Assembly: GCA_964023275.1 (NCBI GenBank)
Contig: OZ029916.1
Location: 45,727,304-45,791,303, forward strand
Reading direction: 5' to 3'
Length of the DNA: 64,000 bases
Source of the DNA: Norana najaformis
Taxonomy: Eukaryota > Annelida > Clitellata > Crassiclitellata > Hormogastridae
In this document: positions 3,641 to 27,702 of the stretch, piece after piece
Position numbering within the stretch: the stretch's first letter is position 1
Layout of the letters: the number at the start of each line of letters is the position of its first letter
Program-made: the position numbers and the translations under genes
Notes under the pieces: model-generated
Database searches by the model: none
What the model saw: the letters and a program-made list of their open reading frames with translations, nothing else
Told to the model about the DNA's origin: nothing

Positions 3641-3776
3641 CCTGGACAGTGCAGTAGATCCTAATTTTCGATCCTGCAGAAAACGGCTGGAACATTTTCA
3701 GCACCCGCTTCTTAGGGCTTACTGCCCCCACAACACCAGTGGTGTACACCTTCACTCATAAAAATAAGTGTTTCTC
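3641..3776 (-). pseudogene. Beta exon, divergent copy R (frameshifted)
   Basis: Keeps the acceptor (pyrimidine-rich, TTTAG) and donor (CAGG|GTAATC) of the beta exon but carries one extra G in the GGGGG run near 3725, making it 136 nt. Ignoring that base, it encodes a diverged version of the 45-residue module: GETLIFMSEGVHHWCCG, then PKKR, then QP, GSKIRIYC. Compared with the main type, changes are conservative (W/F, I/L, K/R), so this branch was coding for a long time before it decayed. It is the most downstream beta copy in the array. Confidence 0.55.
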
Positions 3777-4263
3777 CTAAAGCAAAGATACAGATAATAA
3801 AGAAAAAGTTTTGAAAGAACTCTAGAAAAAAGTTTTGGATAGCATAAATATTAAATGGAAAGTTGCAGAATCGTATGTAGGCCTAATCATATCGTGTAAC
3901 TTCAGAATAATCCACAAAGCATTTATCAGTAGTGCACTAAATAATGGTTGCTCTGTGAAACCATACAGTCTGCCAATGTCTTTGTGCCAGCAACCAAGGC
4001 TAAAAATTGCAACCAGGACTTCCGGTTGTTACTGACTAATTAAAATTTCGTTTGCCATTTGAAAATTCATTAAACAACTACAGTTCATTAACAGCTGAAA
4101 TTTATAATAAAAAAACAACATAAAACACATTAAAATAAGCAAGTTGAAACAGACAAGGTGTAAGTTTAGACATGAATGACATTGCAGAACTGACAGAACG
4201 GTTAGAACTTGGCAGCAAACTCGAAAAGAAATAGGCAGGAAATTATTATTTATTAATATACAC

Positions 4264-4353
4264 CAGTCGAACCCGGCTGAAGCACCGCTCTTTCAATCCT
4301 GAATTGACCGTGGTTCACGAAAGTAACCGCAACTCCCTCTTTCAGCAGGTGAA
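4264..4353 (-). CDS. Alpha exon copy 1 of unidentified modular gene
   Basis: A 90-nt exon with acceptor ATTACAG and donor ACTG|GTGTAT on the minus strand. It is phase 1 at both ends, so it can be duplicated or skipped without frame change. Encodes about 30 residues beginning HLLKEGVAVTFV and ending RIERAVLQPGST, an alternating hydrophobic pattern suggesting beta strands. When joined to a beta exon, G+GG makes Gly (PGST-G-ETLL). Against copy 2 it differs at seven synonymous and two nonsynonymous codons, the mark of a selected coding exon. I do not recognise the family. Confidence 0.6.
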
Positions 4354-4489
4354 CTGTAATAAATATTATAAGAAAATAATATAAATGTAACAAGCTTTCT
4401 GATGATACATGCATAATCTGTGGTTAATCATGTATGTATATTTTGTAGCTTAATTTTATATCTAGTTATCCTATTTCATATTTAATTAT

Positions 4490-4835
4490 TTACAATATTA
4501 GGGTACACAACAGTCCAGTGGTTAGCATGCTGAACAGTCAGTCGAAAGTTGGGGGTTTCAATCCCCGCCACGGTAGAAATCATTCCAAGATTTTGACCGG
4601 CACACTTCTGCAGCATACCCAGCAGTAAAATATGTGAAAACACACGTTTTTCCATACCGACCGTATGGCCTCTTTGGCTCTGCCCATTTCTCAACAAATT
4701 TATCTGGTGAGATCCTTCACCATTTCTGCCCGTTCTGAATGGGTGACACGCCATTTAAGGTCACCCGTACGGCCGAGCTAAATCAAACTGAAATCTTAAA
4801 TATTACCACGATCGGTATGCTAACCGGCATCCTCA
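4490..4835 (+). mobile_element. tRNA-headed SINE, family F
   Basis: The head has a pol III A-box-like stretch (CAGTGGTTAGCATGCTG, about 4515-4532) and a B box (GGTTTCAATCCC, about 4554-4566), spaced as in a tRNA. The body includes CCGTATGGCC and GGTGAGATCCTTCACC, and the end is near GGCATCCTCA. Near-identical copies lie at 9170, 12370 and 27838, with a diverged 3' part at 50405. The 90-codon open frame on the opposite strand is a by-product. Confidence 0.75.
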
Positions 4836-4865
4836 TTTATAATAAAAAACAACATAAAACACATT

Positions 4866-5450
4866 AAAGTATCATAATTTTTAAAGCCTCTTTTCGGCAG
4901 AATGCTGCATTAAAAAGAGCAAGCAGACCCCTTAAGCTAACCCTGAGAGGCAGCCACCATTATGAATCATTAACGACTTCTTTATTCTTAGCCTCGGCAT
5001 ATGAGGGCAGGTGGAAAGCCCCGACATCACTGTCTGATCTTTCCACTGACAGTGTATAGTCAGTGTACTCATTACAGCTGAGTTTGCTAGGGGGTGCAAG
5101 TGGAGCTGAAATCTCAAAACAAGTTTCTACCCTGGCGGGATTTGAACCTCTGACCTTCAGTTCACAGTCCATCAGGCTAAACACCAGACTATCACACAAT
5201 CCAAGCATTTTTAATGTTCGGATAAAAATAACTGAAACTCCGCCACTGCCTTGTTTGGGGGGAAGTGCCAGTCCCAAGCCTGGATGAAGGAGGAGGGCGA
5301 CGTCAACGGCCTTTGATGCCATAAGCTGTCGTTAAACTGAGGAACTACTAACCGAAACTCAATCTCATATAAAACGAAACAAAAACAAACTTTTCTTTGA
5401 TGTTGCTGTAGTGGGTACAGCACCGTTCACTTCGGAACAAAAGAGAACAA
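4866..5450 (-). mobile_element. tRNA-headed SINE family D block
   Basis: Read on the minus strand, a tRNA-like head (GATAGTCTGGTGTTTAGCC as A box; AGGTTCAAATCCC as B box, about 5130-5205) precedes a conserved body with CTCATATGCCGAGGCTAAGAA and GGCTGCCTCTCAGGG, ending in an AT-rich tail at about 4866. Upstream of the head is another repeated stretch (about 5210-5450). The body recurs, diverged, in solo copies at 22035, 22405 and 62700, so it is an old family carried along by the array duplications. Confidence 0.65.
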
Positions 5451-5870
5451 CATCCCCTGAATAAAGATAATTTCAAGTTAATTTTAAGTTAAATAATTGC
5501 CAGTAATTTTACATGTTAATATTAAGTTAATTAATTGTAACTGGGATCATCATCATCATCATCAGTTCCTGATGCCAGCCTTTTGGTGACTGTGGGTGTG
5601 AAACACTTCTAGAATGGCTTATTTCTATTTGTAAGTGTCCAGTTCCTTGAAATGTTAAATAATTCTAACATTATAAAATTTAAAAATTAAATATATACTG
5701 TAGTTGGTGGCTATTAACTGCTTAAACAAACATATCTACACCAAAACTAGCATCATAAACTATATACGCAAACAATCTAACACACCAAAATGTGAATCAA
5801 AGGAGAATCACTACACAGACATGCTTAGATACATTTCACTATTATGTACAGTTGTGCTATGAAAGATTAC
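5451..5870. other. Array intron: (ATC)n patch and AT-rich spacer
   Basis: Contains AAGTTAATT-rich sequence with an uninterrupted GTTAATAATTGCCAG-type site. At the paralogous place near 6966 and 10175 two elements are inserted, so this copy shows the empty site. A short (ATC)n run lies at about 5548-5564. No coding signal seen. Confidence 0.5.
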
Positions 5871-6005
5871 CTGGGCCCGTGCAGTACATCCTGATGCGGG
5901 AGCCGACTGTCAGAGGCTGAGAAAGAATCAGCTCCCGCTTCCGTGGATTCACTGACCCGCAGCAGAAATGGGTCACGCCCTCCTGACAGTACAGGAGGGT
6001 CTCCC
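5871..6005 (-). CDS. Beta exon copy 1 of unidentified modular gene
   Basis: A 135-nt exon, acceptor TTACATTAG, donor CCCAG|GTAATC, phase 1 at both ends. Encodes 45 residues: GETLLYCQEGVTHFCCG, then NPRKREL, then QPLTVGSRIRMYCTGP. The four cysteines include a CC pair and a C-terminal YCT. Compared with the older copies R (3641) and Q (24213), it keeps Gly-Glu, EG, H, CCG, KR, QP, GS, IR and YC, while many other differences are conservative or silent. That implies selection on the protein. Family not recognised. Confidence 0.6.
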
Positions 6006-6330
6006 CTAATGTAAAGTTACAGATAACTTCAGAAAATAAAATTCTGGAAAGTATAAACATTACATGGAAACTTGCAGATATATATAGGCCTAATCATATC
6101 GTTTAACTTCAGAATAATGCACAAGGCATTTATCAGGAGTGCACTAAACAATGGTTGCTATGTGAAACCATACAGTCTGCCAATGTCTTTGTGCCAGCAA
6201 CCAAGGCTAAAAATTGCAACCAGGACTTCCGGTTGTTACTGACTAATTAAAATTTCGTTTGCCATTTGAAAATTCATTAAACAACTACAGTTCATTAACA
6301 GCTAAAATTTATAATAAAAAAAACAACATA

Positions 6331-6930
6331 AAACACATTAAAGTATCATAATTTTTAAAGCCTCTTTTCGGCAGAATGCTGCATTAAAAAGAGCAAGCAG
6401 ACCCCTTAAGCTAGCCCTGAGAGGCAGCCACCATTATGAATCATTAACGACTTCTTTTTTCTTAGCCACGGCATATGAGGGCAGGTGGAAAGCCCCGCCA
6501 TCACTGCCTGATCTTCCTACTGACAGCGTATAGTCAGTGTACTCATTACAGCTGAGTTTGCTAGGGGTGGGGTCCAAGTGGAGCTGAAATATCAAAACAA
6601 GTCTCTGCCCTGGAGGGATTTGAACCCCTGACCTTCAGTTCACAGTCCATCAGGCTAAACACTAGACTATCACACAATCCAAGCATTTTTAATGTTCAGA
6701 TAAAAATAACTGAAACTCCGCCACTGCCTTGTTTGGGTGTAGTGCCAGTCCCAAGCCTGGATAAAGGAGGAGGGGAACGTCAACGGCCTTTGATGCCATA
6801 AGCTGTCGTTAAACTGAGGAACTACTAATCGAAACTCAATCTCAGATAAAACGAAACAAAAACAAACTTTTTCTCGATGTTGCCGTAGTTCCACCGTTGT
6901 TGAGCTCCGAGCAGAATAGTGCAACATCGC
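6331..6930 (-). mobile_element. tRNA-headed SINE family D block, copy in first 3.2-kb unit
   Basis: Same structure as the block at 4866: tRNA-like head with B box GGTTCAAATCCC on the minus strand (about 6610-6625) and conserved body toward 6331. It marks the start of the first 3.2-kb tandem unit; the equivalent block in the second unit begins at 9538. Confidence 0.65.
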
Positions 6931-6965
6931 CTGAATAAAGATAATTTCAAGTTAATTTTAAGTTA

Positions 6966-7162
6966 ATTCATCATCATCATTGTCGCGAGCTAGTCGCAAA
7001 GTCAGAGTTCAGAAAAAAAATCAACATAACTGTTTAAGCGTTTCTTCTCCTCGTTGTGTAATCCCCAAACGCCATCACCCGAGTCTCTCTCTAGACTGTC
7101 ATCCTGCCCCTTCTCTATAAAATTTAATAAGTAAGTGGGACCTGCCCACCCCTTGGTCCTGA
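6966..7162 (-). repeat. Short (ATC)n-tailed inserted repeat
   Basis: A segment of about 200 bp starting TCATCATCATCATTGTCGCG, present here and at about 10172-10370 but absent at the paralogous positions near 5490, 13380, 23835 and 26205. The opposite end abuts the RTE-tailed element. It was therefore inserted after the array modules first duplicated. Confidence 0.55.
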
Positions 7163-7543
7163 CAATCATCATCATCATGATCCATGGGCCGAGAGCCCGT
7201 AGGTGTCCACTGGATGCATTGTCATTGCATTGGATTTCCTTCGTCTGTTTCCTTTATGAACGGAGTATCTGCACCCATCCGTTCGACCCTTGCACTTCTC
7301 TGTGAAATGAGTTCCAGGCTTGGAACTGGGTCTGATGTCCTTGTGGCACCAGAGGCGTCGTTGCCGCCCACGTTAGCCAGCTGTTTCAGGGTTCCTGCTG
7401 AGCCTGTCCACCTCGCGAAGCGCCCTAGGTGGTACCTCGGCCAAGACCTTCACCACTGATGGCATAGCCTCAGCAGGCAATCCCTTACTTGGCTCTTTTC
7501 ACCCCCTCACCACGTTGAGGTGTGAGTCGGACTTTGAGGGGGT
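7163..7543 (-). mobile_element. Short element with RTE-type 3' tail (LINE-dependent SINE)
   Basis: On the minus strand this 380-bp element begins CCCCCTCAAAGTCCGACTCA and ends with GTGGACACCTACGGGCTCTC, GGCCCATGGATC and (GATGAT)n. The last 50 bases match the 3' end of the RTE-type LINE at 57297-58425, including the codons for YGLSAHGP. The rest is unrelated to the LINE coding region. This is the expected design of a SINE or internally replaced element mobilised by that LINE. No tRNA-like A/B boxes were seen, so the head source is unknown. A second copy lies at 10371-10751. Confidence 0.65.
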
Positions 7544-7678
7544 TAATTAATTGCCAGTAATTTAACAAGTTAATTTTAAGTTAATTAATTGTAACTGGAT
7601 CATCATCGTCATCATCATCATCATCAGTTTCTGGTGCCAGCCTTTTGGTAACAATGGGTGCAAAACACTTCTGATGAA

Positions 7679-7968
7679 AGGACGTGGTGGCATAGTGGTA
7701 TGTTCTGTGCCTTGTAACCGGAGGGTCATGGGTTTGAACCTGCCTCAAGCCGCTGTGAAGCAACCTTGGACAAGATGCTCACCCACAACTGTCTGTGAGG
7801 AAGGCAATGGGAAAACCACCTCACTCATCTCATCCCAAGTGGCATAAAGCCAATGGACCTGCCTTGGGGCAGAGAACTCCATCATTTCACCCACGCCCAC
7901 GATTCCTCGCTCAGTCGATGGACATATGGCGTGTTAACAAATGCATTACTTACTTACTTACTTACTTA
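7679..7968 (+). mobile_element. tRNA-headed SINE, family B
   Basis: The head has GTGGCATAGTGGTATGTTC as A box and GGGTTTGAACC as B box (about 7684-7742). The body includes GACAAGATGCTCACCCACAA, GGAAAACCACCTCACTCATC and ATCATTTCACCCACGCCCAC. It ends in an (ACTT)n tail (about 7945-7968). Other copies: 10876-11168, 24636-24952 (interrupted) and 26338-26555 (truncated). Confidence 0.75.
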
Positions 7969-8011
7969 GATACATTTCACTATTATGCACAGTTGTGCTA
8001 TGAAAGATTAC

Positions 8012-8146
8012 CTGGGCCCGTGCAATAAAGCCTGACGCGGGAGCCGACTGTCACAGGCTGAGTAAGAGTCAGCTCCCGCTTCCGCGGATTCATCGTTCCC
8101 ATGAGGAGATGGGTCCGACCCTCCTGACAGTACAGGAGGGTCTCCC
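8012..8146 (-). CDS. Beta exon copy 2 of unidentified modular gene
   Basis: 135 nt, acceptor TTACTTTAG, donor CCCAG|GTAATC, phases 1-1. Encodes GETLLYCQEGRTHLLMG, NPRKREL, QPVTVGSRVRLYCTGP. The CC pair of copy 1 is replaced (LM), so those two cysteines are not invariant. Differences from copy 3 (11213) are few, as expected for the recent 3.2-kb tandem duplication. It follows alpha copy 2 (8942-9031) in transcription order. Confidence 0.6.
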
Positions 8147-8941
8147 CTAAAGTAAAGTTACAGATAACTTCAGAAAATAAAATTCTGGAAAGTATAAACA
8201 TTACATGGAAACTTGCAGAATCGTATATAGGCCTAATCATATCGTGTAACTTCAGAATAATGCACAAGGCATTATCAGTAGTGCACTAAACTGTGAAACC
8301 ATACAGTCTGCCAATGTCTTTGTGCCAGCAACCAAGGCTAAAAATGGCAACCAGGACTTCCGGTTGTTATTCAGACGACAGAAAGTGTTGATGCTTTCAA
8401 AAAACAATAAAACTGTTCATACTTTCAAAAAACAGCTCTTGGGCAAACAACTTACATTAAAAAGCAACTTAGAATTAAACTGATACTTACAATGCTGCAA
8501 ATGTTGTAGTCATTACATTACACTACAATATTTTTCAGTACCTTGCAGCATCCTATAAACTTAATCACTGCAAGTACGCAGAAATTTCTTTCAAGTATAA
8601 TGTCTGATAGATTAAATTGATGTGATTCATAAAAATACAAACTTTCGGTTTCGGGCATACAAGAAATATCTAATCTAAAGACTTCTATAGTGCTGATATC
8701 ATTATGCCCAAGGCAGCAGCCTAAGGTCCCTTCAAGTTAAAATCACAATCCAAACGCATAGTCCATTGGAAAACCCAAATGAATTCCGATACGTCAGAGA
8801 AACCACAAACAAATAAGCAAGTTGAAACAGACAAGGTGTAAGTTTAGACATGAATGACATTGCAGAACTGACAGAACGGTTAGAACTTGGCAGCAAACTC
8901 GAAAAGAAATAGGCAGGAAATTATTATTTATTAATATACAC
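8147..8941. other. Array intron between alpha 2 and beta 2
   Basis: AT-rich intron-like sequence present at matching places upstream of beta copies 3 (about 11348-12142) and 6 (about 26806-27612). It includes GGCCTAATCATATCG and CCAGGACTTCCGGTTGTTA, landmarks shared by all beta copies. I see no further exon in it with confidence. Confidence 0.5.
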
Positions 8942-9031
8942 CAGTCGATCCCGGCTGAAGCACTGCCCGTTCTATCCTAAATTGCGTGTGGATAACGAAC
9001 GTAACCGCAACTCCCTCTTTCAGCAGGTGAA
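8942..9031 (-). CDS. Alpha exon copy 2 of unidentified modular gene
   Basis: 90 nt, acceptor ATTACAG, donor ACTG|GTGTAT, phases 1-1. Encodes HLLKEGVAVTFVIHTQFRIE followed by RAVLQPGST. Against copy 4 (27613) I count about twelve synonymous and three nonsynonymous codon differences; against copy 1, seven and two. Splice sites are preserved in all. Spliced to beta 2 it reads on in frame through a Gly junction. Confidence 0.62.
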
Positions 9032-9169
9032 CTGTAATAAATATTATAAGAAAATAATATAAATGTAACAAGCTTTCTGATGATACATGCATAATCTGTG
9101 GTTAATCATGTATGTATATTTTGTAGCTTAATTTTATATCTAGTTATCCTATTTCATATTTAATTATTT

Positions 9170-9515
9170 ACAATATTAGGGTACACAACAGTCCAGTGGT
9201 TAGCATGCTGAACAGTCAGTCGAAAGTTGGGGGTTTCAATCCCCGCCACGGTAGAAATCATTCCAAGATTTTGACCGGCACACTTCTGCAGCATACCCAG
9301 CAGTAAAATATGTGAAAACACACGTTTTTCCATACCGACCGTATAGCCTCTTTGGCTCTGCCCATTTCTCAACAAATTTATCTGGTGAGATCCTTCACCA
9401 TTTCTGCCCGTTCTGAATGGGTGACACGCCATTTAAGGTCACCTGTACGGCCGAGCTAAATCGAAACTGAAATCTCTTAAATATTACCACGATCGGTATG
9501 CTAACCGGCATCCTC
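9170..9515 (+). mobile_element. tRNA-headed SINE, family F, copy 2
   Basis: Near-identical to the copy at 4490 and carried by the duplication. A and B boxes at about 9193-9245; 3' end at GGCATCCTCA about 9511. Confidence 0.75.
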
Positions 9516-9537
9516 ATTTATAATAAAAAACAACATA

Positions 9538-10150
9538 AAACACATTAAAGTATCATAATTTTTAAAGCCTCTTTTCGGCAGAATGCTGCATTAAAAAGAG
9601 CAAGCAGACCCCTTAAGCTAACCCTGAGAGGCAGCCACCATTATGAATCATTAACGACTTCATTTTTCTTAGCCTCGGCATATGAGGGCAGGTGGAAAGC
9701 CCCGCCATCACTGACTGATCTTCCCACTGACAGTGTAGAGTCAGTGTACTCATTACAGCTGAGTTTGCTAGGGGGGGGGGGGGTGCAAGTGGAGCTGAAA
9801 TCTCAAAACAAGTCTCTGCCCTGGCGGGATTTGAACCTCTGACCTTCAGTTCACAGTCCATCAGGCTAAACACCAGACTATCACACAATCCAAGCATTTT
9901 TAATGTTCGGATAAAAATAACTGAAATTCCGCCACTGCCTTGTTTGGGTGTAGTGCCAGTCCCAAGCCTGGATAAAGGAGGAGGGGAACGTCAACGGCCT
10001 TTGATGCCATAAGCTGTCGTTAAACTGAGGAACTACTAATCGAAACTCAATCTCAGATAAAACGAAACAAAAACAAACTTTTCCTCGATGTTGCCGTAGT
10101 TCCACCGTTGTTGAGCTCCGAGCAGAATAGTGCAACATCGCCTGAATAAA
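9538..10150 (-). mobile_element. tRNA-headed SINE family D block, start of second 3.2-kb unit
   Basis: Same as 6331-6930 with small differences, including a G run at 9772-9782. B box GGTTCAAATCCC on the minus strand near 9825-9838. Marks the first bases of the second 3.2-kb tandem unit. Confidence 0.65.
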
Positions 10151-10370
10151 GATAATTTCAAGTTAATTTTAAGTTAATTCAACATCATCACTGTCGCGAG
10201 CTAGTCGCAAAGTCAGAGTTCAGAAAAAAAATCAACATAACTGTTTAAGCGTTTCTTCTCCTCGTTGTGTAATCCCCAAACGCCATCACCCGAGTCTCTC
10301 TCTAGACTGTCATCCTGCCCCTTCTCTATAAAATTTAATAAGTGGGACCTGCCCACCCCTTGGTCCTGAC

Positions 10371-10751
10371 AATCATCATCATCATGATCCATGGGCCGAG
10401 AGCCCGTAGGTGTCCACTGGATGCATTGTCATTGCATTGGATTTCCTTCGTCTGTTTCCTTTATGAACGGAGTATCTGCACCCATCCGTTCGACCCTTGC
10501 ACTTCTCTGTGAAATGAGTTCCAGGCTTGGAACTGGGTCTGATGTCCTTGTGGCACCAGAGGCGTCGTTGCCGCCCACGTTAGCCAGCTGTTTCAGGGTT
10601 CCTGCTGAGCCTGTCCACCTCGCGAAGCGCCCTAGGTGGTACCTCGGCCAAGACCTTCACCACTGATGGCATAGCCTCAGCAGGCAATCCCTTACTTGGC
10701 TGTTTTCACCCCCTCACCACGTTGATGTGTGAGTCGGACTTTGAGGGGGTT
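10371..10751 (-). mobile_element. Short element with RTE-type 3' tail, copy 2
   Basis: Nearly identical to 7163-7543 because it lies inside the tandemly duplicated 3.2-kb unit. The (ATC)n run at its lower end and the CATGGGCCGAGAGCCCG motif match the tail of the LINE at 57297. The (ATC)n-tailed repeat that precedes it occupies about 10172-10370. Confidence 0.65.
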
Positions 10752-10875
10752 AATTAATTGCCAGTAATTTAACAAGTTAATTTTAAGTTAATTAATTGTA
10801 ACTGGATCATCATCATCATCATCATCAGTTTCTGGTGCCAGCCTTTTGGTAACAATGGGTGCAAAACACTTCTGA

Positions 10876-11168
10876 TGAAAGGACGTGGTGGCATAGTGGT
10901 ATGTTCTGTACCTTGTAACCGGAGGGTCATGGGTTTGAACCTGCCTCAAGCCGCTGTGAAGCAACCTTGGACAAGATGCTCACCCACAATTGTCTGTGAG
11001 GAAGGCAACGGGAAAACCACCTCACTCATCTCATCCCAAGTGGCATAAAGCCAATGGACCTGCCTTGGGGCAGAGAACTCCATCATTTCACCCACGCCCA
11101 CGATTCCTCGCTCAGTCGATGGACATATGGCGTGTTAACAAATGCATTACTTACTTACTTACTTACTT
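10876..11168 (+). mobile_element. tRNA-headed SINE, family B, copy 2
   Basis: Same structure as 7679-7968 with B box GGGTTTGAACC near 10929 and (ACTT)n tail at about 11145-11168. Confidence 0.75.
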
Positions 11169-11212
11169 AGATACATTTCACTATTATGTACAGTTGTGCT
11201 ATGAAAGATTAC

Positions 11213-11347
11213 CTGGGCCCGTGCAGTAAAGCCTGACGCGGGAGCCGACTGTCACAGGCTGAGTAAGAGTCAGCTCCCGCTTCCGCGGATTCATGGATCC
11301 CATGCAGAGATGGGTCCGACCCTCCTGACAGTACAGGAGGGTCTCCC
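11213..11347 (-). CDS. Beta exon copy 3 of unidentified modular gene
   Basis: 135 nt, acceptor TTACTTTAG, donor CCCAG|GTAATC, phases 1-1. Encodes GETLLYCQEGRTHLCMG, NPRKREL, QPVTVGSRVRLYCTGP. It differs from copy 2 by a handful of bases in one short stretch. It lies downstream of alpha 3 in transcription order. Confidence 0.6.
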
Positions 11348-12142
11348 CTAAAGTAAAGTTACAGATAACTTCAGAAAATAAAATTCTGGAAAGTATAAAC
11401 ATTACATGGAAACTTGCAGAATCGTATATAGGCCTAATCATATCGTGTAACTTCAGAATAATGCACAAGGCATTATCAGTAGTGCACTAAACTGTGAAAC
11501 CATACAGTCTGCCAATGTCTTTGTGCCAGCAACCAAGGCTAAAAATGGCAACCAGGACTTCCGGTTGTTATTCAGACGACAGAAAGTGTTGATGCTTTCA
11601 AAAAACAATAAAACTGTTCATACTTTCAAAAAACAGCTCTTGGGCAAACAACTTACATTAAAAAGCAACTTAGAATTAAACTGATACTTACAATGCTGCA
11701 AATGTTGTAGTCATTACATTACACTACAATATTTTTCAGTACCTTGCAGCATCCTATAAACTTAATCACTGCAAGTACGCAGAAATTTCTTTCAAGTATA
11801 ATGTCTGATAGATTAAATTGATGTGATTCATAAAAATACAAACTTTCGGTTTCGGGCATACAAGAAATATCTAATCTAAAGACTTCTATAGTGCTGATAT
11901 CATTATGCCCAAGGCAGCAGCCTAAGGTCCCTTCAAGTTAAAATCACAATCCAAACGCATAGTCCATTGGAAAACCCAAATGAATTCCGATACGTCAGAG
12001 AAACCACAAACAAATAAGCAAGTTGAAACAGACAAGGTGTAAGTTTAGACATGAATGACATTGCAGAACTGACAGAACGGTTAGAACTTGGCAGCAAACT
12101 CGAAAAGAAATAGGCAGGAAATTATTATTTATTAATATACAC

Positions 12143-12232
12143 CAGTCGATCCCGGCTGAAGCACTGCCCGTTCTATCCTAAATTGCGTGTGGATAACGAA
12201 CGTAACCGCAACTCCCTCTTTCAGCAGGTGAA
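12143..12232 (-). CDS. Alpha exon copy 3 of unidentified modular gene
   Basis: 90 nt with the same acceptor, donor and protein as alpha 2, as expected from the recent 3.2-kb tandem duplication. Starts HLLKEGVAVTFVIH and ends AVLQPGST. Phases 1-1. Confidence 0.6.
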
Positions 12233-12369
12233 CTGTAATAAATATTATAAGAAAATAATATAAATGTAACAAGCTTTCTGATGATACATGCATAATCTGT
12301 GGTTAATCATGTATGTATATTTTGTAGCTTAATTTTATATCTAGTTATCCTATTTCATATTTAATTATT

Positions 12370-12715
12370 TACAATATTAGGGTACACAACAGTCCAGTGG
12401 TTAGCATGCTGAACAGTCAGTCGAAAGTTGGGGGTTTCAATCCCCGCCACGGTAGAAATCATTCCAAGATTTTGACCGGCACACTTCTGCAGCATACCCA
12501 GCAGTAAAATATGTGAAAACACACGTTTTTCCATACCGACCGTATAGCCTCTTTGGCTCTGCCCATTTCTCAACAAATTTATCTGGTGAGATCCTTCACC
12601 ATTTCTGCCCGTTCTGAATGGGTGACACGCCATTTAAGGTCACCTGTACGGCCGAGCTAAATCGAAACTGAAATCTCTTAAATATTACCACGATCGGTAT
12701 GCTAACCGGCATCCT
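12370..12715 (+). mobile_element. tRNA-headed SINE, family F, copy 3
   Basis: Near-identical to 9170-9515; A and B boxes at about 12395-12445. Confidence 0.75.
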
Positions 12716-12739
12716 CATTTATAATAAAAAACAACATAA

Positions 12740-13330
12740 AACACATTAAAGTATCATAATTTTTAAAGCCTCTTTTCGGCAGAATGCTGCATTAAAAAGA
12801 GCAAGCAGACCCCTTAAGCTAACCCTGAGAGGCAGCCACCATTATGAATCATTAACGACTTCTTTTTTCTTAGCCTCGGCATATGAGGGCAGGTGGAAAG
12901 CCCCGACATCACTGCCTGATCTTTCCACTGACAGTGTAGAGTCAGCGTACTCATTACAGCTGAGTTTGCTAGGGGGGGGGGGTGCAAGCGGAGCTGAAAT
13001 CTCAAAACAAGTCTCTGCCCTGGCGGGATTTGAACCTCTGACCTTCAGTTCACAGTCCATCAGGCTAAACACCAGGCTATCACACAATCCAAGCATTTTT
13101 AATGTTCAGATAAAAATAACTGAAACTCCGCCACTGCCTTGTTTGGGGGAAGTGCCAGTCCCAAGCCTGGATGGAGGAGGAGGGCGACGTCAACGGCCTT
13201 TGATGCCATAAGCTGTCGTTAAACTGAGGAACTACTAACCGAAACTCAATCTCATATAAAACGAAGCAAAAACAAACTTTTCCTTGATGTTGCTGTAGTG
13301 GGTATAGCACCGTTCATTTCAGAGCAGAAA
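12740..13330 (-). mobile_element. tRNA-headed SINE family D block, third array copy
   Basis: Body and tRNA-like head as at 4866-5450. Downstream sequence switches here from the 3.2-kb unit type to the 4140-6590 type, marking the edge of the older, larger duplication. Includes a G run at 12973-12982. Confidence 0.65.
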
Positions 13331-13756
13331 ATAACAACATCCCCTGAATAAAGATAATTTCAAGTTAATTTTAAGTTAATTAATTGCCAGTAATTTTACA
13401 AGTTAATTTTAAGTTAATTAATTGTAACTGGATCATCATCATCATCATCAGTTCCTGATGCCAGCCTTTTGGTGGCTGTGGGTGTGAAACACTTCTAGAA
13501 TGGCTTATTTCTATTTGTAAGTGTCCAGTTCCTTGAAATGTTAAATAATTCTAACATTATAAAATTTAAAAATTAAATATATACTGTAGTTGGTGGCTAT
13601 TAAGTGCTTAAACAAACATATCTACACCAAAACTAGCATCATAAACTATATATGCAAACAATCTAACACACCAAAATGTGAATCAAAGGAGAATCACTAC
13701 ACAGACATGCTTAGATACATTTCACTATTATGTACAGTTGTGCTATGAAAGATTAC

Positions 13757-13891
13757 CTGGGCCCGTGCAGTACATCCTGATGCGGGAGCCGACTGTCAGA
13801 GGCTGAGAAAGAATCAGCTCCCGCTTCCGTGGATTCACTGACCCGCAGCAGAAATGGGTCACGCCCTCCTGACAGTACAGGAGGGTCTCCC
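13757..13891 (-). CDS. Beta exon copy 4 of unidentified modular gene
   Basis: 135 nt, acceptor TTACATTAG, donor CCCAG|GTAATC, phases 1-1; same protein as beta 1 (5871), as expected from the 4140-6590/12020-14461 duplication. GETLLYCQEGVTHFCCG then PRKREL and GSRIRMYCTGP. Confidence 0.6.
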
Positions 13892-14221
13892 CTAATGTAA
13901 AGTTACAGATAACTTCAGAAAATAAAATTCTGGAAAGTATAAACATTACATGGAAACTTGCAGATATATATAGGCCTAATCATATCGTGTAACTTCAGAA
14001 TAATGCACAAGGCATTTATCAGGAGTGCACTAAACAATGGTTGCTCTGTGAAACCATACAGTCTGCCAATGTCTTTGTGACAGCAACCAAGGCTAAAAAT
14101 TGCAACCAGGACTTCCGGTTGTTACTGACTAATTGAAATTTCGTTTGCCATTTGAAAATTCATTAAACAACTGCAGTTCATTAACAGCTAAAATTTATAA
14201 TAAAAAACAACATAAAAAACA

Positions 14222-14461: not shown

Positions 14462-14463
14462 AC

Positions 14464-17400
14464 CTTCATTTGCCCTTAAATTGGGCGCAGTGTGTGTTTT
14501 GCCAGAACAAGACTTGCGAGAAACTGCAGTGTCCGGCTAATTCGCTTGGTCTGGACAAAAGCGCTGGATAGGAGTCCTTAGCCAGAATATTGCCCGAGTT
14601 TGATAGTCTTGGAGCACTACCACCCTCCCTCGTTTTGTCACGCATAGATGCAGATGGAGGTTTGCTGGAAGCTTTCCAACTAAATGAAGCCAAATGGCAT
14701 AAATCATGTCGTTCAAAATTTAGCACAAGGTAGTTAAGACGTAAATCTGCCGGTGTTGCGAAATCGTCTACTAGTGGTTCATTGGCAAATGGTTCAGATG
14801 TTGTTTCTGAGCAGTTGGACGATGGTTCGTTCTTGAGTCCGGTGAACAAACGCCGATTCATTAGATCTGATATCAGTGACATAAAATCTCCAGGCATATC
14901 TGTTTGTTTTTTTCTGTGACATGCCAGCAGGTTCACAATGTTTGCACGAGGTATCAACACTTGAACTTGGCACCAGGATCAAGGAATGTGCCCTTGCGCT
15001 GTCAGATGACAGGCTTCTTGCAAAGCTTGCCATGAGTGACATGGTAGCCATTGAGGCTAAATATCACTCTAACTGCCTGGCACAGTTATATAATCGCAGA
15101 CGTTCTTATGAACGTGAACAGTACACTATGTTGTTCATGCCTTGCTGTTCTGCTGATGCAATATCTGCTGATGCAATATCTGCCGATGCAATATTTGCTG
15201 AGCCAACAGCTTACATAAATGATGTGCGAGCTGTATGTAACATTTGACCAGTTTTCAAGCTTGTTGATCTGAAAAACATGTATGTTGACCGATTGCAGCA
15301 AGTTTATGGGCAAATTACCAGTACTGCCTGTGTGAACAGTACACGTCTGAAACAGAAATTGCTTAAGCAGTTTCCAGGTATGCGGTCACAGAGTGATGGA
15401 CGTCGTGTTATTGGTGTAATGCTGGTCTTTGATGATGACATTGGCACTGCTTTGTCAAAAGCATGCCATGAAGATTTTCACAAGGATGCTTTATGTCTCT
15501 GAAGGGCTGCAGAAATTGTGCGTCGTGAGATATTTGGTGATAGGCCTAAATGGTCTTTTAATGGGTCTTTTCAATTTTCTGCAAATTGTAACGACAACTC
15601 TTTGCCTCAGAATTTGCTTGCCTTTGTTAGCATGATACTTGAGGGCACAAGTACTGATATGCAGAAACTGCAGCAAAATGTACCTGCAGCAGCAACAATT
15701 GCACAGTTGATTGTGTTTAACAGTGTACAGCATAAACGTAGCAATCACAACCGAGTCACTACTGCAGTACGACACAGCAACATGAGACACCATTACCTCT
15801 GTACATAGGTCTTACTGTGCATGCCGCTACTGGGAAGAAGTCTTTAATTGATAAACTTTTTGATGTTGCTGTGTGTGCGTGTGTGCATCATATGACCGTA
15901 TAATGTCTGATTTGGCTAGTGGTGTTTGTCAGAGGTTTGAAGTAGAACAGGCTGTATGTCCACTGAATTTTAAGAGAAACCTTTTCACCACTGCTGCTGT
16001 TGACAACATTGACCATAATCTCTCATCCACTAGTGCACATGGATCTTTTCATGGGACTGGCATATCACTTCAGCAACATCCAGACTTAGATACCCCAGGC
16101 ACTGACCGTGTTATAGCTTACTTTAGTGATACCACTCAGGGAAAGAGTCATTTCAGTTTACCTTCCTCATACACTTCTGTACCACCAATTAGATTGCTGA
16201 CTGATGAAACTGCAATCCCCTCTTTTACTGGAAGTTTGCAGGAAACAGGTAGAGTATTTACATATCAAATGCTGTGAAAGCTGAACATTCTTGGTTAGAC
16301 AGCATACGGAAAAATTGGCAAACATGTTCTTTTTATTCCAGCTTCATTTCTTCTTGGTCTGCTTATCATGCACAATAACAAACTGCATTGCAACCTCCTC
16401 TTTCTTTATGTCGAATGCTGCCTTTGTTTTATGAAAATGCTCATAATGTTGCTATGATATGTCATTCGATGGATATTGTTCAAGCTGCTGTATCTAAACT
16501 GAATCCAGGTCAGGTTTCGGTAGTCACATTTGATCAATCACTCTACACACTAGCAAAACTGATACAGTGGAATTGGCCAGATTCATACGGTGCCAACAAC
16601 TTTGCAATTATGTTTTGTGATCTGATTGTTCATATTGAGATGGCAGCTCTTAAGGCCTTGGGAACTCTTTTTTTGAGTGGTAGTGGTTGGGAAGAAGCTG
16701 CCACATAAGCAGGGCTAGTAACTGCAGGTTCAGCTGAAGCACTTTTGTCTGCCACTCATGTCAGACGTTGTAGACATGTGTATGAAGTAACTCTAGCAGC
16801 ACTCCATGTTCTACAGTCCATGGCATTTGAAATTTGTAAGACTGACTTACAACCGTCTGATCAGTGTCTGTCATTTGAATCCTGGTGTGAAAAGCAGTGT
16901 TCTAAACATAAGCAATTTGCATTTTGGTCACTTGTAAAGAAATCTGAAGCTACAGTTTTATTGTTCGTTAGGTCTTTCAGGGAATCAAACTTTGGTCTGT
17001 ATGTGGATACAATGACTAGTTTGATTCCATGGTTTTTTGCACTAGATCGGACCAACTATGCACGTTGGCTCTCAGTTCACATTAGAGACATGGTTGCCTT
17101 GCCAAATACCAATCCAGATATTTTCAAGCAGTTTACTCGGGCAAATTCACAGTTCACAAGACTACAAAAAAATTCTCAGGCATGTCTATTGACCAGGCTA
17201 ACGAACAGTTAAATACAGTTGTTGAAGGTGATGGTGGTGTGGTTGGTTTGACAGAGAATGACAGTGCATTGTGCAGGTGGATTCTTGCTGGTCCAGAAGT
17301 TGCCCGTTTACTTGCAGAGTTTAAATCGAGTTATTCTTCAGCTGTAGTTGGAGGTAGTGAATGTCACCATGAACAGCAGGCAAGCATTAAAAAATCCTTT

Positions 17401-19095
17401 GTCAGAGATGTCGCTCACCTTGTCTAGAACCATGGAAGATTTTGGTAACCCTTTTGAGCATGACCATGACCTTATTGTATTGCACAACAGGAATATTATA
17501 ACGACTGAGGCATCTGAAGCTGTTTGGAGAGTACTTCAGATTGGTCTTTGTCAGTACAATGACTTTGTTACAACACGGCTAATGAATAACTGTTTCCCTG
17601 TTTTCTCCGCTGAAACGCATTAAGCTGTGCTTCTTTGCTGCTCCAAAGCTCACCACGGGTTCAAAGATGAAAAGTAAGGTCATTGCTTCAAGGAATGATG
17701 CTGCATTGTACTCTAGGCTGTCCATAGCTTGCCAAATTCGTAGCATTGACTTAGATTAATTTTTCTGGCATGAAGACCAAGTTTTTCCCCCGTCATTATC
17801 AGATGCATGTAGTCTTCATCTGGGTCCAAATCTGATCTGTTGTCATGTCTCCAGAACCTATGCAAACCAGTGCTGACTGCACCACGTGTCGATGGTTTGG
17901 TTGTTGATGGTGCAGCGATTGTAAATATGTTGAAGCCTGAGTCTGTCACTACATTTGCAGATTATGCTGACAGAGTCTTTATCCCGTATGTTAAGTCGCA
18001 GCTTGCTCTTGTCAAGTGCATTGACATTGTGTGGGACCGTTATGAAAATGTCAGTCTCAAAGGCTTAACTCGTGCCAAACCTGGTTCTGGTATACGGCGC
18101 CAGGTTATTGAATCAGCCCCAATTCCATGTAACTGGCCTGACTTCCTAAAAATGATCACAATAAGACAGCATTGTTTACTTTTCTAACCAACAAATTGTC
18201 TAATGTGTCAGCAGGTGTGCGTAAGCATATTGTAGTTACATTAGATACAGCTGTTGTAAGTACAATACCAGACTATGATACTGCTCAGCTGAGTCCATGT
18301 ACACATGAAGAGGCAGACACTCGAATGTTTTTGCATGCCGCTGACTTAGTTCTTGCTGGGCATCACAAAATCCTGATTAAGACCGTTGATACTGATGTCG
18401 TTGTCCTCGCTGCTGCCTTTCAGCAAATACTAGCTTGTAATGAATTGTGGTTGGCATTTGGGACAGGACATCATCTTCGATATATTCCTGCTCATGACCT
18501 AGTATGTATTTTGGGTCCAGAGCGATCCTGTGCACTGCCTATGTTTCATGCATTCACTGGCTGTGACACTGCGTCAGCATTTGTTGGACGGGGCAAAAAG
18601 ACTTGTTGGGAAACTTGGAACAAGTATCCCGCAGTTTCAGCAGTCTTTAATGAATTAAGTCAGTTGGCTTGTGCCATTTCTGAAACCTGCTTAACTGTAG
18701 TGGAACAATTTTTTCGTACGTTTATATGATCCATCTATTCATTGCAGCTGTGTGAACTCAGCTCGTAGAAAACTATTTGCACAAAGAGGTAGAACTATTG
18801 AAAATATTCCACAAATACAAGATGCATTTGTGCAACACATTAAACAACTAAACGTGCTGTGTATCAGGCTGGGTACGTTTGGAGTCAGGCATTGGTTACA
18901 CAGCCTGTGTTACCAGATCCTGCTGAATGGGGATGGTTGCTAGCTGATAACATATGGCAACCACTATGGATGACTTTGCCAGATGCAGCAAAGTGCTGCC
19001 CAGAACTGAAACGTTGTGGTTGTAAAACAGGCTGTTCCACAAAACATTGCAGGTGTTTCAAAGACAACTTAATGTGCACAGCACTTTGTGCATGA
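14464..19095 (+). pseudogene. CXC-tailed, PIN/FEN-like repeated protein, copy 2 (nearly full length, broken)
   Basis: Follows one protein family across about 4.6 kb in shifting frames. N-terminal zinc-binding blocks: CVFCQNKTCEKLQCP (about 14500) and KWHKSC (about 14692), then CFFCDMPAG with MVAIEAKYHSNCLAQLYNR (about 14910-15095). The middle has WSFNGSFQFSAN (about 15550), DQSLYTLAKL and DRTNYARWLSVHIRDM. The PIN/FEN-like core has DGAAIVNMLKP (about 17908), WDRYENVSLKG, HEEADTRM and TVDTDVVV, then CALPMFHAFTGCD. The CXC-like tail ends CGCKTGCSTKHCRC...CTALCA (about 19015-19095). Stops or shifts lie near 14560, 14730, 15247, 15501, 15806, 16370, 16706, 17135, 17427 and 18150. Relatives are repeated in many marine animal genomes; a mobile origin is likely but unproven. 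Confidence 0.72.
15151..15202 (+). repeat. 15-bp tandem repeat inside CXC-tailed element
   Basis: Three successive GCTGATGCAATATCT units (last copies GCCGATGCAATATTT) giving repeated ADAIS residues. In-frame, multiple of three, so it may have expanded while the ORF was still coding. Confidence 0.7.
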
Positions 19096-21775: not shown

Positions 21776-22034
21776 CATGCTTTTATCCACTTGTTGAACA
21801 ATTCTTTACATTTCTGAACCTTAGCCACCTCACTATTAATCTGTCAAATGCACTTTCTTAGCCTTGGTATATGACATTTATTCAGTCTGAAAACAAACAA
21901 GCCAATAAACAAACAATGTATTTTAACATGAGATAATAAGTAGGTAAAGTAAAGCTCCTAAACCACCCTGAAGTGGTGTCAAGCAACAATGTATTTTATG
22001 TCAAAATGAAATGAAACGTTTTAAATACCTGAAG

Positions 22035-22290
22035 AACAGTCCCTTAACCTAACTCCAAGAGGCAGCCACAGAGGTACAAACTAGTAGCAACTGCACTTTC
22101 TTAGCCTTGGCATATGACAGCAGGTGGTTAGTCTTCTCCCTTGCCATCCATTCACGACATGAAAAATGTGAGGGTCATGAACTCATTTCATAGCCAAATT
22201 GCTAAGAGGGCAAGAGTAGAAAGAAATACTGAAATGTTTTTTTGTACTAGCGGGATCTTAACACAGTCCATAAACACTAATTTCGCAACA
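22035..22290 (-). mobile_element. SINE family D, diverged solo copy
   Basis: Minus-strand body with the TTCTTAGCCTTGGCATATGA and CCAAGAGGCAGCCA landmarks seen in other family D copies, but well diverged. Head reduced to a remnant near 22250-22290. Confidence 0.55.
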
Positions 22291-22770: not shown

Positions 22771-23204
22771 CATATAAACCTAAAATGAAAATTCTAACGT
22801 ACATATTTTGTCAGCTAAAGTTAGTCTTAAAAACATATGTATTTAAATGTAACAATCATATGCAGTCAGCAGTGGTAGCTAGGTATTGTGCCTATGGACT
22901 TTCTGTTCATGTTTACGGGGTCGCAAATCCCCACATGCCAAGACTTGGACTGAATTGCTTTTCCACCCAACAATGCAAAGTCCACCCTCTTTGCGGACAT
23001 CCTTTAGGGATGACCCCCTTATCAATTTTAAATTATTTTCTATATGCTTCTGTACTTACAGGTGTTTTATGGACCTTTCTTCTGCAGTACTAAAAATAAC
23101 AATAGCTAATTAAAATTTCGTTTCCCATTTGAAAATTCATTAAACAACTACAGTTCATTAACAGCTAAAATTTATAATAAAAAACCAATAAACATAAAAA
23201 ACGT
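22771..23204. other. Spacer, no supported gene
   Basis: From 23105 it re-enters array-type sequence (AATTAAAATTTCGTTT). No coding signal; two overlapping short ORFs have no recognisable content. Confidence 0.5.
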
Positions 23205-23810
23205 TAAAGTATCATAATTTTTAAAGCCTCTTTTACGCACAATGCTGCATTAAAAAGAGCAAGCAGACCCCTTAAGCTAACCCTGAGAGGCAGCCACCAT
23301 TATGAAACATTAACGACTTCATTTTTCTTAGCCTCGGCATTTGAGGGCAGATGGAAAGCCCCGCCATCACTGACTGATCTTCCCACTGACAGCGTAGAAT
23401 CAGTGTATTCATTATAGCTCAGTTTGCTAAGCGTGCAAATGGAGCTGAAATCTCAAAACAAGTTTCTGCCCTGGCGGGATTTGAACCCCTGACCTTCGGT
23501 TCACAGTCCATCAGGCTAAACACCAGACTATCACACAATCCAAGCATTTTTAATGTTCAGATAAAAAAACTGAAACTCAAAACTCCACCACTGCCTTGTT
23601 TGGGGGTAGTGCCAGTCCCAAGCCTGGATAAAGGAGGGCGATGTCATCGGCCTTTGATGGCATAAGATGTCGTTAAACTGAAGAGCTACTAACCGAAACT
23701 CAATCTCATATAACACGAAACAAAAACAAACTCTTCCGTGATGTTGCTGTTGTATGGCGGTCAGCGTTATTCGATTCCGAACAGAAAAACGCAACGTCAC
23801 TTGAATAAAG
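23205..23810 (-). mobile_element. SINE family D block within array part 2
   Basis: Same layout as 4866-5450, more diverged. B box GGTTCAAATCCC on the minus strand near 23478-23490. Marks resumption of the alpha/beta array after the CXC/hAT interruption. Confidence 0.6.
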
Positions 23811-24212: not shown

Positions 24213-24347
24213 CTCGGCCGACACAGTAGACCCTGATTTTCGACCCGTTTGAGATTGGTTGAAACATTTCCAGGACCCGTTTCTTGGGGCTTACTGCCCC
24301 GCAGCACCAATGGCGAAGACCTTCGCTTATAAAAATAAGCGTTTCAC
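24213..24347 (-). pseudogene. Beta exon, divergent copy Q (donor lost)
   Basis: 135 nt and open in frame, with acceptor CTTTAG. The donor GT has become CT (GAG|CTAATC), so normal splicing should fail. Encodes GETLIFISEGLRHWCCG, SPKKRVLEMFQP, GSKIRVYC. It belongs to the same diverged branch as copy R at 3641, sharing HWCCG and SPKKRVL. Its first codon uses a different third base for the same Gly. Confidence 0.55.
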
Positions 24348-24915: not shown

Positions 24916-24950
<35 letters not shown>

Positions 24951-24952
24951 GA
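24636..24952 (+). mobile_element. SINE family B, 5'-truncated, with a nested insertion
   Basis: Family B body starts at TCTGTGAGGAAGGCAACGGG and ends in a long (ACTT)n tail (about 24917-24952). At 24770-24893 it is interrupted by about 125 bp of another repeat (TGCCTGACTCC... to GATTACGATTAC), which also occurs at about 41640-41960 and, diverged, near 43500-43590. Confidence 0.65.
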
Positions 24953-24993
24953 TACATTTCACTATTATGTACAGTTGTGCTATGAAAGATTAC

Positions 24994-25134
24994 CTGGGCC
25001 CGTACAGTAAATCCTGATTCTTGAGCCGACTGTGAGAGGCTGCGAGACTATGAGCTCCCTCTTCCTCTTCCTTGGATTTACTGAACCCATGCAGAGATGG
25101 GTCCGGCCCTCCTGACAGTACAGGAGGGCCTCCC
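24994..25134 (-). CDS. Beta exon copy 5 of unidentified modular gene (141 nt)
   Basis: Acceptor TTACTTTAG, donor CCCAG|GTAATC, phases 1-1. Six extra bases in the KRKR stretch add two codons without breaking frame. Encodes GEALLYCQEGRTHLCMG, NPRKRKREL, QPLTVGSRIRIYCTGP. An in-frame indel in an otherwise variable copy is what selection on a protein predicts. Confidence 0.58.
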
Positions 25135-25895: not shown

Positions 25896-25914
25896 AGTTT
25901 TTTTCTGTTGAAGC

Positions 25915-26175
25915 CTTTTTAATGTTCAGATAAAAAACTGAAACTCAAAACTCCGCCACTGCCTTGTTTGGGGGTAGTGCCAATCCCAAGCCTGGATAAA
26001 GGAGGAGGGCGACGTCAACGGCCTTTGATGCCATAAGATGTCGTTAAACTGAGGAACTACTAACCGAAACTCAATCTCATGTAAAACGAAACAAAAACAA
26101 ACTCTTTCGTGATGTTGTAGTTCTATTTGCACTATTCCGCTCGTAGCAGAACAGCACAACATCGCCTGAAAAAAG
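25915..26175 (-). mobile_element. Head-side segment of SINE family D block, partial
   Basis: Only the upstream part (PQFND/IQAWDWH-encoding stretch in array copies) is present; the tRNA-like head and body are missing. Confidence 0.5.
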
Positions 26176-26337
26176 ATAATTTCAAGTTAATTTTAAGTTA
26201 ATTAATTGCCAATAATTTAACAAGTTAATTTTAAGTTAATTAATTGTAACTGGATCATCACCGTGATCATCATCGTCATCATCATCATCAGTTCCTGGTG
26301 CCAGCTTTTTGGTAACAACGGGTGCAAAGCACTTCTG

Positions 26338-26555
26338 ATGAAGGGACATGGTGGCGTAGTGGTATGTTCTGTGCCTTGTAACCGGAAGGTCGTGGGTTTG
26401 AACCTGCCTCAAGCCAGTGTGTAGCGACCTTGGACAAGTTGCTCACCCACAATTGTCTGTGAGGAAGACAACGGGAAACCACCCCATTCATCTCATCCCC
26501 AGCTGGCATAAAACCAATGGACCTGCCTTCGAGCAGAGAACTCCATCATTTCATA
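26338..26555 (+). mobile_element. SINE family B, 3'-truncated copy
   Basis: Head with GTGGCGTAGTGGTATG and GTGGGTTTGAACC, body to ATCATTTCA (about 26551), then array intron sequence without the (ACTT)n tail. Confidence 0.65.
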
Positions 26556-26670
26556 TGTATAACTATATATGCAAGCAATCTAACACACCTAAATTTGAAT
26601 CAAAGGAGAATCACTACACAGACATACTTACATTTCACTATTATGTACACTTGTGGCTATGAAAGATTAC

Positions 26671-26804
26671 CTGGGCCCGTAAAGTACATTCTGATACGGG
26701 AACCAACAGTCAGTGGCTGAGACACAAGCAGCTTCCGCTTCTGTGGGTTCATCGACCCACAGCAGAAATGGCTGGTTCCCTCTTGACAGAACAGAAGCGC
26801 CTCC
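26671..26804 (-). pseudogene. Beta exon copy 6 (acceptor shifted by one base)
   Basis: Open in frame as a beta module (EALLFCQEGTSHFCCG, NPQKRK, QPLTVGSRIRMYFTGP) with the normal donor, but the acceptor reads TTAAGGG instead of TTAGGGG. The first usable AG then removes one base and shifts the frame. The final Cys is Phe. It is decaying, or it uses another acceptor. It directly follows alpha 4. Confidence 0.5.
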
Positions 26805-27612
26805 CTTAATGTAAAGTTACAGATAACTTCAGAAAATAAAATTCTGGAAAGTATAAACATTACATGGAAACTTGCAGAATCGTTTGTAAGCCTAATTATA
26901 TCGTGTAACTTCAGAATAATGCACAAGGCATTTATCAGTAGTGCACTGAACAATGGTTGCTCTGTGAAAAACCATACAGTCTGCCAATGTCTTTGTGCCA
27001 GCAACCAAGACTAAAAATGGCAACCAGGACTTCCGGTTGTTATTCAGACGACAGAAAGTGTTGATGCTTTCAAAAACAATAAAACTGTTCATACTCTCAA
27101 AAAAAGCTCTTGGGCAAACAACTGACATTAAAAAGCAACTTAGAAGTAAACTGATACTTACAATGCTGCAAATGTTGTAGTCATTACATTACACTACACT
27201 ACTTTTCAGTACCTTGCAGCATCCTATAAACTTAATCACCGCAAGTATGCAGAAATTTCTTTCAAGTATAATGTTTGATAGATTAAATTGATGTGATTAA
27301 TAAAAATAAAAACTTTCGGTTTCGGGCATACAAGCAATATCTAATCTAAAGACTTCTATAGTGCTGATATCATTGTGCCCAAGGCAGCAGCCTAAGGTCC
27401 CTTCAAGTTAAAATCGCAATCCAAACTCATAGTCCATTGGAAAACCCAAATGAATTCCGATACGTCAGAGAAACCACAAACAAATAAGCAAGTTGAAACA
27501 GACAAGGTGTAAGTTTAGACATGAATGACATTGCAGAACTGACAGAACGGTTAGAACTTGGCAGCAAACTCGAAAAGAAATAGGCAGGAAATTATTATTT
27601 ATTAATATACAC

Positions 27613-27702
27613 CAGTCGAACCCGGCTGTAGCACCGCCCTTTCGATCCTGAATTGCGCGTGGATCACGAACGTGACAGCACGGCCCTCTCTCAACAGATG
27701 AA
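27613..27702 (-). CDS. Alpha exon copy 4 of unidentified modular gene
   Basis: 90 nt, acceptor ending CAG, donor ACTG|GTGTAT, phases 1-1. Encodes HLLREGRAVTFVIHAQFRIE then RAVLQPGST. It is the most diverged alpha: about twelve synonymous changes against three amino-acid changes relative to alpha 2. This is the strongest sequence evidence that alpha is a selected coding exon. It is the first module of the array in transcription order; no leader exon is recognisable upstream. Confidence 0.62.

Follow-up and report, generated by a model that had tools for sequence, protein, structure and literature searches.

What kind of protein is encoded by an array of short, repeated coding exons on the minus strand of a 64,000-nucleotide stretch of the genome of the annelid Norana najaformis (contig OZ029916.1, positions 45,727,304 to 45,791,303; in the following, the window), and how did many of the exon copies come to differ more than the introns around them? 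An earlier note on this DNA, made from the letters alone, had described two exon types, alpha and beta, as parts of a protein that it could match to no known family. Our analysis adds a third repeated exon, gamma, as well as the single exons epsilon and delta, places all of them in order by means of an intronless relative elsewhere in the genome, and finds its best match for the encoded module in the nucleoplasmin-like (NPL) domain. The findings are jointly best explained by a local amplification of NPL-domain exons, with introns that were homogenized and exon variants that were kept apart by selection, a reading to which we assign a probability of roughly three in four.

The window is located on contig C4 of the 608 Mb genome, which is assembled into 17 contigs. 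Its minus strand hosts four alpha, eight beta, and six gamma copies besides epsilon and delta; the alpha and beta copies lie where the earlier note had placed them, whereas gamma, epsilon, and delta had been overlooked. DNA similarity to one beta copy recovered six of the eight beta copies; alignment and protein search added those near 3.7 and 24.3 kb. In intact copies, alpha measures 90 nucleotides (nt), beta 135-141 nt, and gamma 63-66 nt, all with phase 1-1 ends. That all copies share exact acceptors and donors holds for alpha (four of four, with AG/GT splice sites) and for six of the eight beta copies, including the frameshifted b3, but not for b24 and b26, which lost the donor and the acceptor, respectively. 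Five beta copies are intact (b3, b24, and b26 being damaged), as are five of the six gamma copies; all gamma copies are phase 1-1, and g23 lacks an in-register acceptor. Over these three exon types, 14 of 18 copies are intact and four (b3, b24, b26, g23) are broken. The 6-nt in-frame indel reported earlier is real and resides in b25. In the reading direction of the minus strand, the features are as follows.

27613..27702, minus strand: alpha exon a27, 90 nt, phase 1-1, intact
26671..26805, minus strand: beta exon b26, 135 nt, acceptor AG lost (AA), 82% identical to the C5 copy and its closest beta in the window
26103..26165, minus strand: gamma exon g26, 63 nt, phase 1-1, intact
24994..25134, minus strand: beta exon b25, 141 nt with the 6-nt in-frame insert, intact
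24213..24347, minus strand: beta exon b24, donor GT lost, divergent (47-48% amino acid identity to b11)
23732..23800, minus strand: gamma exon g23, 69 nt in register, acceptor AG lost (AA), nearest AG shifts the frame
23060..23089, minus strand: epsilon, 30 nt, ILQKKGP-stop, AG acceptor and GTAAGT donor, 22 of 30 bases as in the C5 copy
22085..22119, minus strand: second, partial delta-like stretch, 35 nt, 91%, no AG at its start
21833..21886, minus strand: delta (3' exon), 54 nt, matching the C5 copy at 91%, the match starting exactly at the AG
13757..13891, minus strand: beta exon b13, intact, identical to b5
13278..13343, minus strand: gamma exon g13, 66 nt, intact
12143..12232, minus strand: alpha exon a12, intact, identical to a9
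11213..11347, minus strand: beta exon b11, intact
10079..10141, minus strand: gamma exon g10, 63 nt, intact
8942..9031, minus strand: alpha exon a9, intact
8012..8146, minus strand: beta exon b8, intact
6868..6930, minus strand: gamma exon g6.9, 63 nt, intact
5871..6005, minus strand: beta exon b5, intact
5391..5456, minus strand: gamma exon g5, 66 nt, intact
4264..4353, minus strand: alpha exon a4, intact
3641..3776, minus strand: beta exon b3, 136 nt, frameshift and in-frame stops

The exon units belong to segmental duplications that repeat at steps of approximately 3.2 kb (e.g., 97.8% identity between blocks 6307-10179 and 9516-13381, and 96.9% between 4122-6585 and 12001-14465), so the copies are not a product of chance, and the earlier suggestion of growth by duplication is borne out. 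Within the whole genome, at least five matches to alpha and at least nine to beta were obtained, lower bounds that cover these two exon types and not gamma separately, and all but one of each fall inside the window. An origin as a dispersed non-genic repeat was rejected on the basis of these counts and of the sole outside match of each type being intronless. A 90-codon open frame (MACHPFRTGRNGEG...) recurs on the minus strand upstream of all four alpha copies (4482-4754, 9160-9432, 12361-12633, 27832-28104) and looks like part of a repeat rather than a gene.

The outside relative shows how the exons are joined. Searched with the beta protein, the genome gave nine matching places: eight of them belong to the window, and the ninth is on contig C5 (C5:11049226-11049726; L009, L019), where an intronless gene, 114 codons long when counted from the ATG, forms the single open frame MAVGAWEHRF-alpha-beta-NVDLFCSELNNPNGRTTATSRK-IPQKKGK-stop. 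Alpha, beta, and gamma each occur once in this copy; epsilon, with the stop, comes next, and delta after it. Laid onto this frame, the window exons meet at their own splice sites; in effect, the C5 copy acts as a natural cDNA for these joins. Its segment after beta matches six window exons, the gamma copies. The 30 bases after gamma agree with window epsilon at 22 positions and share the position of its stop codon; none of 300 Markov-simulated sequences reached this level (maximum 18 matches). A 17-base epsilon pattern produced a single hit in another place, no better than chance, and it was the full 30-base comparison that found this exon. The next 54 bases match 21833-21886 at 91%, beginning right behind an AG. 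As the C5 frame and the window matches run in this way, the exon order is alpha-beta-gamma-epsilon-delta. The alpha-to-beta joint proposed earlier is thus right to the base, since the C5 copy joins identically, but the beta-to-alpha joint is not supported beyond its phase: beta joins gamma in the C5 copy, and an ordinary NPL gene on contig C14 also puts a gamma-type exon after its beta-type exon. Once gamma is included, the supposed 75-residue module grows to some 96-97 residues, behind which comes a short basic tail.

In comparison with nine window exons, the C5 copy shows a nonsynonymous divergence (dN) of 0.14-0.29, with the synonymous divergence (dS) being saturated or nearly so in most cases and 0.48 for b26 alone. 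Because the C5 frame stays open despite largely saturated silent sites, this NPL-type family functions or did so for a long time. Should the C5 gene be a processed copy, its parent transcript would have been made in the germ line, which is probably also where the product acts. A 72-base stretch just upstream of the C5 gene recurs on contig C6 at 79%, and due to this recurrence the 5' region of the gene may derive from a repeat.

Judged by comparison of sequences and profiles, alpha-beta-gamma most likely represents a divergent NPL domain. Alignment by hhalign against a profile of the C14 NPL segment and those of the PDB entries 7wim, 4ca9, and 6j2z covered 78 columns with a score of 34.7 and a probability of 87%, with 100 column shuffles reaching at most 20.7. 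The C14 gene, near 23.487 Mb, is built from exons of 93 nt (1-1) and 147 nt (1-1) and a third one starting in phase 1, and its introns, all phase 1, cut at the same three positions as those of alpha, beta, and gamma. Its third exon holds the last strand, IVHLTGY, and downstream of the NPL exons acidic/basic frames and an FKBP_C exon follow. A 180-residue alpha-beta-alpha-beta-alpha chain matched the Pfam NPL family PF17800 with E=3.1e-6 and 28.3 bits (cut-off 23.4).

Several results count against this assignment. The chain just mentioned, the sole one to score over the PF17800 cut-off, is in the exon order of the earlier note; the C5 protein and three window modules reached 14.8, 20.6, 15.3, and 16.2 bits against the required 23.4. 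Another PF17800 comparison matched only three of five members at all (best E 0.0049), and a Pfam scan of a 78-residue second protein gave no match. Two PDB sequence searches with the module returned no NPL chain, their best E values of 0.48 and 0.13 being at chance level, and a genome search with PF17800 returned the C14 gene only (40.4 bits) and no match in the window. Furthermore, some of the modules used in the single-module Pfam and the profile-profile tests combine exons that do not lie in collinear order within the window.

Given an NPL domain, alpha would provide the first strands of the beta-sandwich, beta its middle, and gamma the last strand, in the place of VHLTGY in ordinary NPL domains, together with a short linker. 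The product would likely be a short protein with one NPL domain and a short basic tail. Neither the C5 tail NVDLFCSELNNPNGRTTATSRKIPQKKGK nor window gamma-epsilon contains an acidic tract, and FKBP_C is absent from the window gene, with a stop codon in epsilon as likewise in the C5 copy. By analogy with known NPL domains, whose beta-sandwiches form pentameric or tetrameric rings, such a protein may self-assemble into a ring and work in the nucleus or on chromatin. The earlier description as an extracellular-type domain is not supported, as the match is to a chromatin-protein fold, although no search for secretion signals was made. An extracellular repeat of 75 residues with exons joined alpha-beta-alpha has phase compatibility in its favor; we rejected it as barely credible, since the C5 copy and the C14 gene place a gamma-type exon after beta and the homology is to NPL.

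How do these exons differ from their surroundings, a contrast that had escaped the earlier note? Seven pairs of duplicated blocks were aligned over their whole length and five of them tested (Fisher). In all five, the exons are more divergent (6.6-38.8%) than the rest of the block (1.2-8.0%), with ratios of 3.4-8.8 and P values from 2.3e-5 to 1.6e-26; the other two pairs, which duplicate sister units, show the same with 17.8-42.2% per exon vs 6.3-8.0%. On the level of single copies, 39 of 42 non-independent pairs (four alpha, seven of eight beta with b3 left out, six gamma) show an exon excess over nearby flanks at an uncorrected P<0.05. Flanks in these pairs were ended where similarity broke, which lowers their divergence, an effect that the whole-block comparison avoids. 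A dS of at least 0.49 or saturated was obtained for 33 of the 42 pairs, their flanks differing by 0-8.5%, or by 16-19% in the six pairs involving the damaged b24.

In most pairs, silent changes dominate the exon divergence. In five non-identical alpha pairs, dN is 0.05-0.08 and dS 0.56-0.92, in agreement with the earlier observation that silent changes outnumber replacements in alpha. For gamma, 14 pairs have a dS between 0.31 and saturation and the near-identical one a dS of 0.07; beta has a dN/dS of at most 0.53 in 15 of 21 pairs, with one pair identical and one saturated. These values derive from simple NG86 estimates on short, non-independent exons and are rough for the damaged b24 and g23. 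Over the alpha and beta copies, dN/dS, named in the earlier note as a check, is thus below 1 in most pairs and about 1 in four beta pairs. Variable columns lean toward third codon positions in all three types (alpha 13/21, beta 26/51, gamma 17/31; one-sided P 0.007, 0.007, and 0.011) when duplicates and damaged copies are left out (three of four alpha, five of eight beta, four of six gamma retained), by which the copies look like true coding exons, as had been proposed.

The step in divergence is sharpest around alpha, where no differences (0 of 150 on each side, three copies pooled) occur within 50 bases of the exon edges. Beta has one variable base near the acceptor, and the flanks upstream of gamma and downstream of beta turn variable after approximately 30-40 bases. 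In the pair a4 and a9, 12 of 90 bases differ (dS 0.56) within 278 identical flanking bases. Two courses of events would leave diverged exons within identical flanks: a homogenization of the introns that postdates the exon divergence, or a rewriting confined to the exons. A number of observations do not fit the picture of distinct exons in uniform introns: b5/b13, a9/a12, and g6.9/g10 differ at 0/135, 0/90, and 1/63 positions; b5 and b13 show a dN close to dS (0.14-0.18) in their four pairs with b8 and b11; an intron stretch (7858-7990) is as divergent as the exons between 7542-9516 and 26197-28189; and the intron beside b5 vs b24 is raised as well.

On the favored explanation, three exons of one NPL beta-sandwich domain, coming from a diverging NPL gene, would have been amplified locally by duplications with the ~3.2 kb step; gene conversion or further duplication would then have kept the introns alike, and selection, later joined by the exons' own divergence, may have kept the exon variants apart. 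The contrast of exons and introns suggests such selection. We infer conversion as the homogenizer and selection as the keeper of the exons, roles adopted here because gibbon L/M opsin genes show this pattern in the consulted part of PMC3213168. The other branch of the alternative, repeated overwriting of exons by reverse-transcribed spliced RNA from divergent relatives, would explain a divergence ending at splice sites with no need for intron homogenization. The clean edges of alpha are what it predicts, and a processed relative does exist on C5. However, one outside relative each was found for alpha and beta (lower bounds, as stated), the C5 relative is at most 82% identical to any beta compared and leaves no donor in sight, the flanks of beta and gamma are less clean, and ordinary conversion plus selection yields the same picture in the part of PMC3213168 considered. 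We regard such rewriting as highly improbable.

A separate matter is whether the array still works and what it produces. Of the 12 exons in the 3.6-14 kb set, 11 are intact, and these include two complete alpha-beta-gamma runs; the set at 24-28 kb carries the 3' end of the gene, with epsilon and delta at 23.1-21.8 kb. The losses tell against a working array: three splice sites are gone in the 24-28 kb set; neither epsilon nor delta was found for the 3.6-14 kb set, inside it or 10 kb beyond (positions 1-22000 and 10 kb beyond gave 19-20 of 30 bases and no splice sites as the best for epsilon, and the known delta only); and no counterpart of the C5 start (MAVGAWEHRF) turned up in the window as a first exon for either set (pattern search without matches, best base comparison 15/25). 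Accordingly, the cluster could be dead, consisting of decaying copies devoid of working ends, with the intronless C5 gene as the sole working member. The four broken copies among 18, at least two units without alpha, the missing first exon, and transposon-like copies on both sides of the 3.6-14 kb set would all suit this notion. Yet 14 copies keep intact frames and splice sites, the third-position excess and the low dN/dS of most pairs show past constraint, and the persistence of distinct exons between near-identical introns suggests that selection lasted at least to the latest intron homogenization. A dead cluster, compatible as it is with the exon anatomy of the favored explanation and not exclusive of it, seems possible rather than probable. 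Less likely still is that the locus stores a repertoire of interchangeable phase 1-1 NPL exons, combined alternatively or strung into a covalent multi-NPL ring, with selection holding the variants apart against continual homogenization, which would make it a chromatin ring gene of exchangeable parts. The proposal of a tandem multi-domain protein, in which successive alpha-beta-gamma units are spliced into one tandem NPL chain, a covalent ring or string, appears rather improbable. All three exon types being phase 1-1, any number of units would stay in frame, gamma to the next alpha would read SRK-I-HLLKEG, and the 3.6-14 kb set offers 11 intact exons in a row with no epsilon-like exon found among them; against this stand the sole processed copy seen, which has one alpha, beta, and gamma and then the stop exon, the pairs b13-g13 and b5-g5, which have no preceding alpha in the intact set, and the failure to find a first or last exon for that set.

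The remainder of the window contains further features. Two transposon-like copies with long plus-strand frames (1152-3452 and 16258-18576, plus strand), 96.8% identical, flank the intact exon set; two of these frames, when scanned, gave no Pfam match over the cut-off. A single 770-codon open frame at 38186-40498 (minus strand) encodes a sulfate transporter (Sulfate_transp and STAS), presumably of SLC26 type, and another of 695 codons at 60104-62191 (plus strand) an Otopetrin-family protein. Two HMG-box stretches share one exon-sized open frame at 50629-51000 (minus strand). Reverse transcriptase frames (RVT_1) at 31459-32172 (plus strand) and 57305-58426 (minus strand) are of the long interspersed element (LINE) type by look. 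No tRNA genes were found by ARAGORN.

Among known systems, the NPL-FKBP proteins (Drosophila FKBP39, yeast Fpr4; PF17800) share their domain with the array according to the profile-profile comparison, and the NPL-FKBP gene on C14 has the same three phase-1 intron positions. In contrast, the C14 gene continues to FKBP_C, whereas the window gene reaches its stop within a few residues of gamma (KKGP-stop), and the window holds many tandem exon copies, whereas PF17800 matches once in the genome, on C14. Nucleoplasmin and nucleophosmin resemble the window gene in having a single NPL core and no second folded domain, as we likewise infer from the C5 copy. The consulted part of PMC4414354 describes long, highly charged stretches after the NPL domain in all nucleoplasmin-type proteins; in the window gene these are absent and a short basic tail stands instead. 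The same part of PMC4414354 distinguishes three layouts of NPL proteins, each of which, in our reading of it, has one N-terminal NPL domain. A tandem bank of NPL exons, of which no report was met in a limited literature search, would be a new layout among these proteins, and if its units were spliced together, a one-chain ring could result whose subunits can differ.

With regard to its evolution, the array makes exons that resist intron homogenization visible exon by exon within a few kb and could serve to locate the end points of conversion at exon edges. In conotoxin and snake venom genes, conserved introns likewise lie next to divergent exons, with replacement changes driving the divergence; in the array, silent changes dominate most pairs. 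The closest precedent is provided by the primate L/M opsin genes, where, as far as the consulted part of PMC3213168 goes, the exons of tandem copies are more divergent than their introns, as in the array, and where conversion in introns and selection against conversion in exons were described for gibbons. The likeness extends to silent and replacement sites both exceeding introns, with replacement not significantly greater than silent (PMC3213168, same part). Two differences separate the systems: the homogenization of the opsin genes is known from populations, that of the array is deduced from one genome, and the synonymous divergence given there for the opsins is 6.1-6.4% (PMC3213168), in comparison to a dS of at least 0.49 or saturated in 33 of 42 pairs, across three exon types, in the array.

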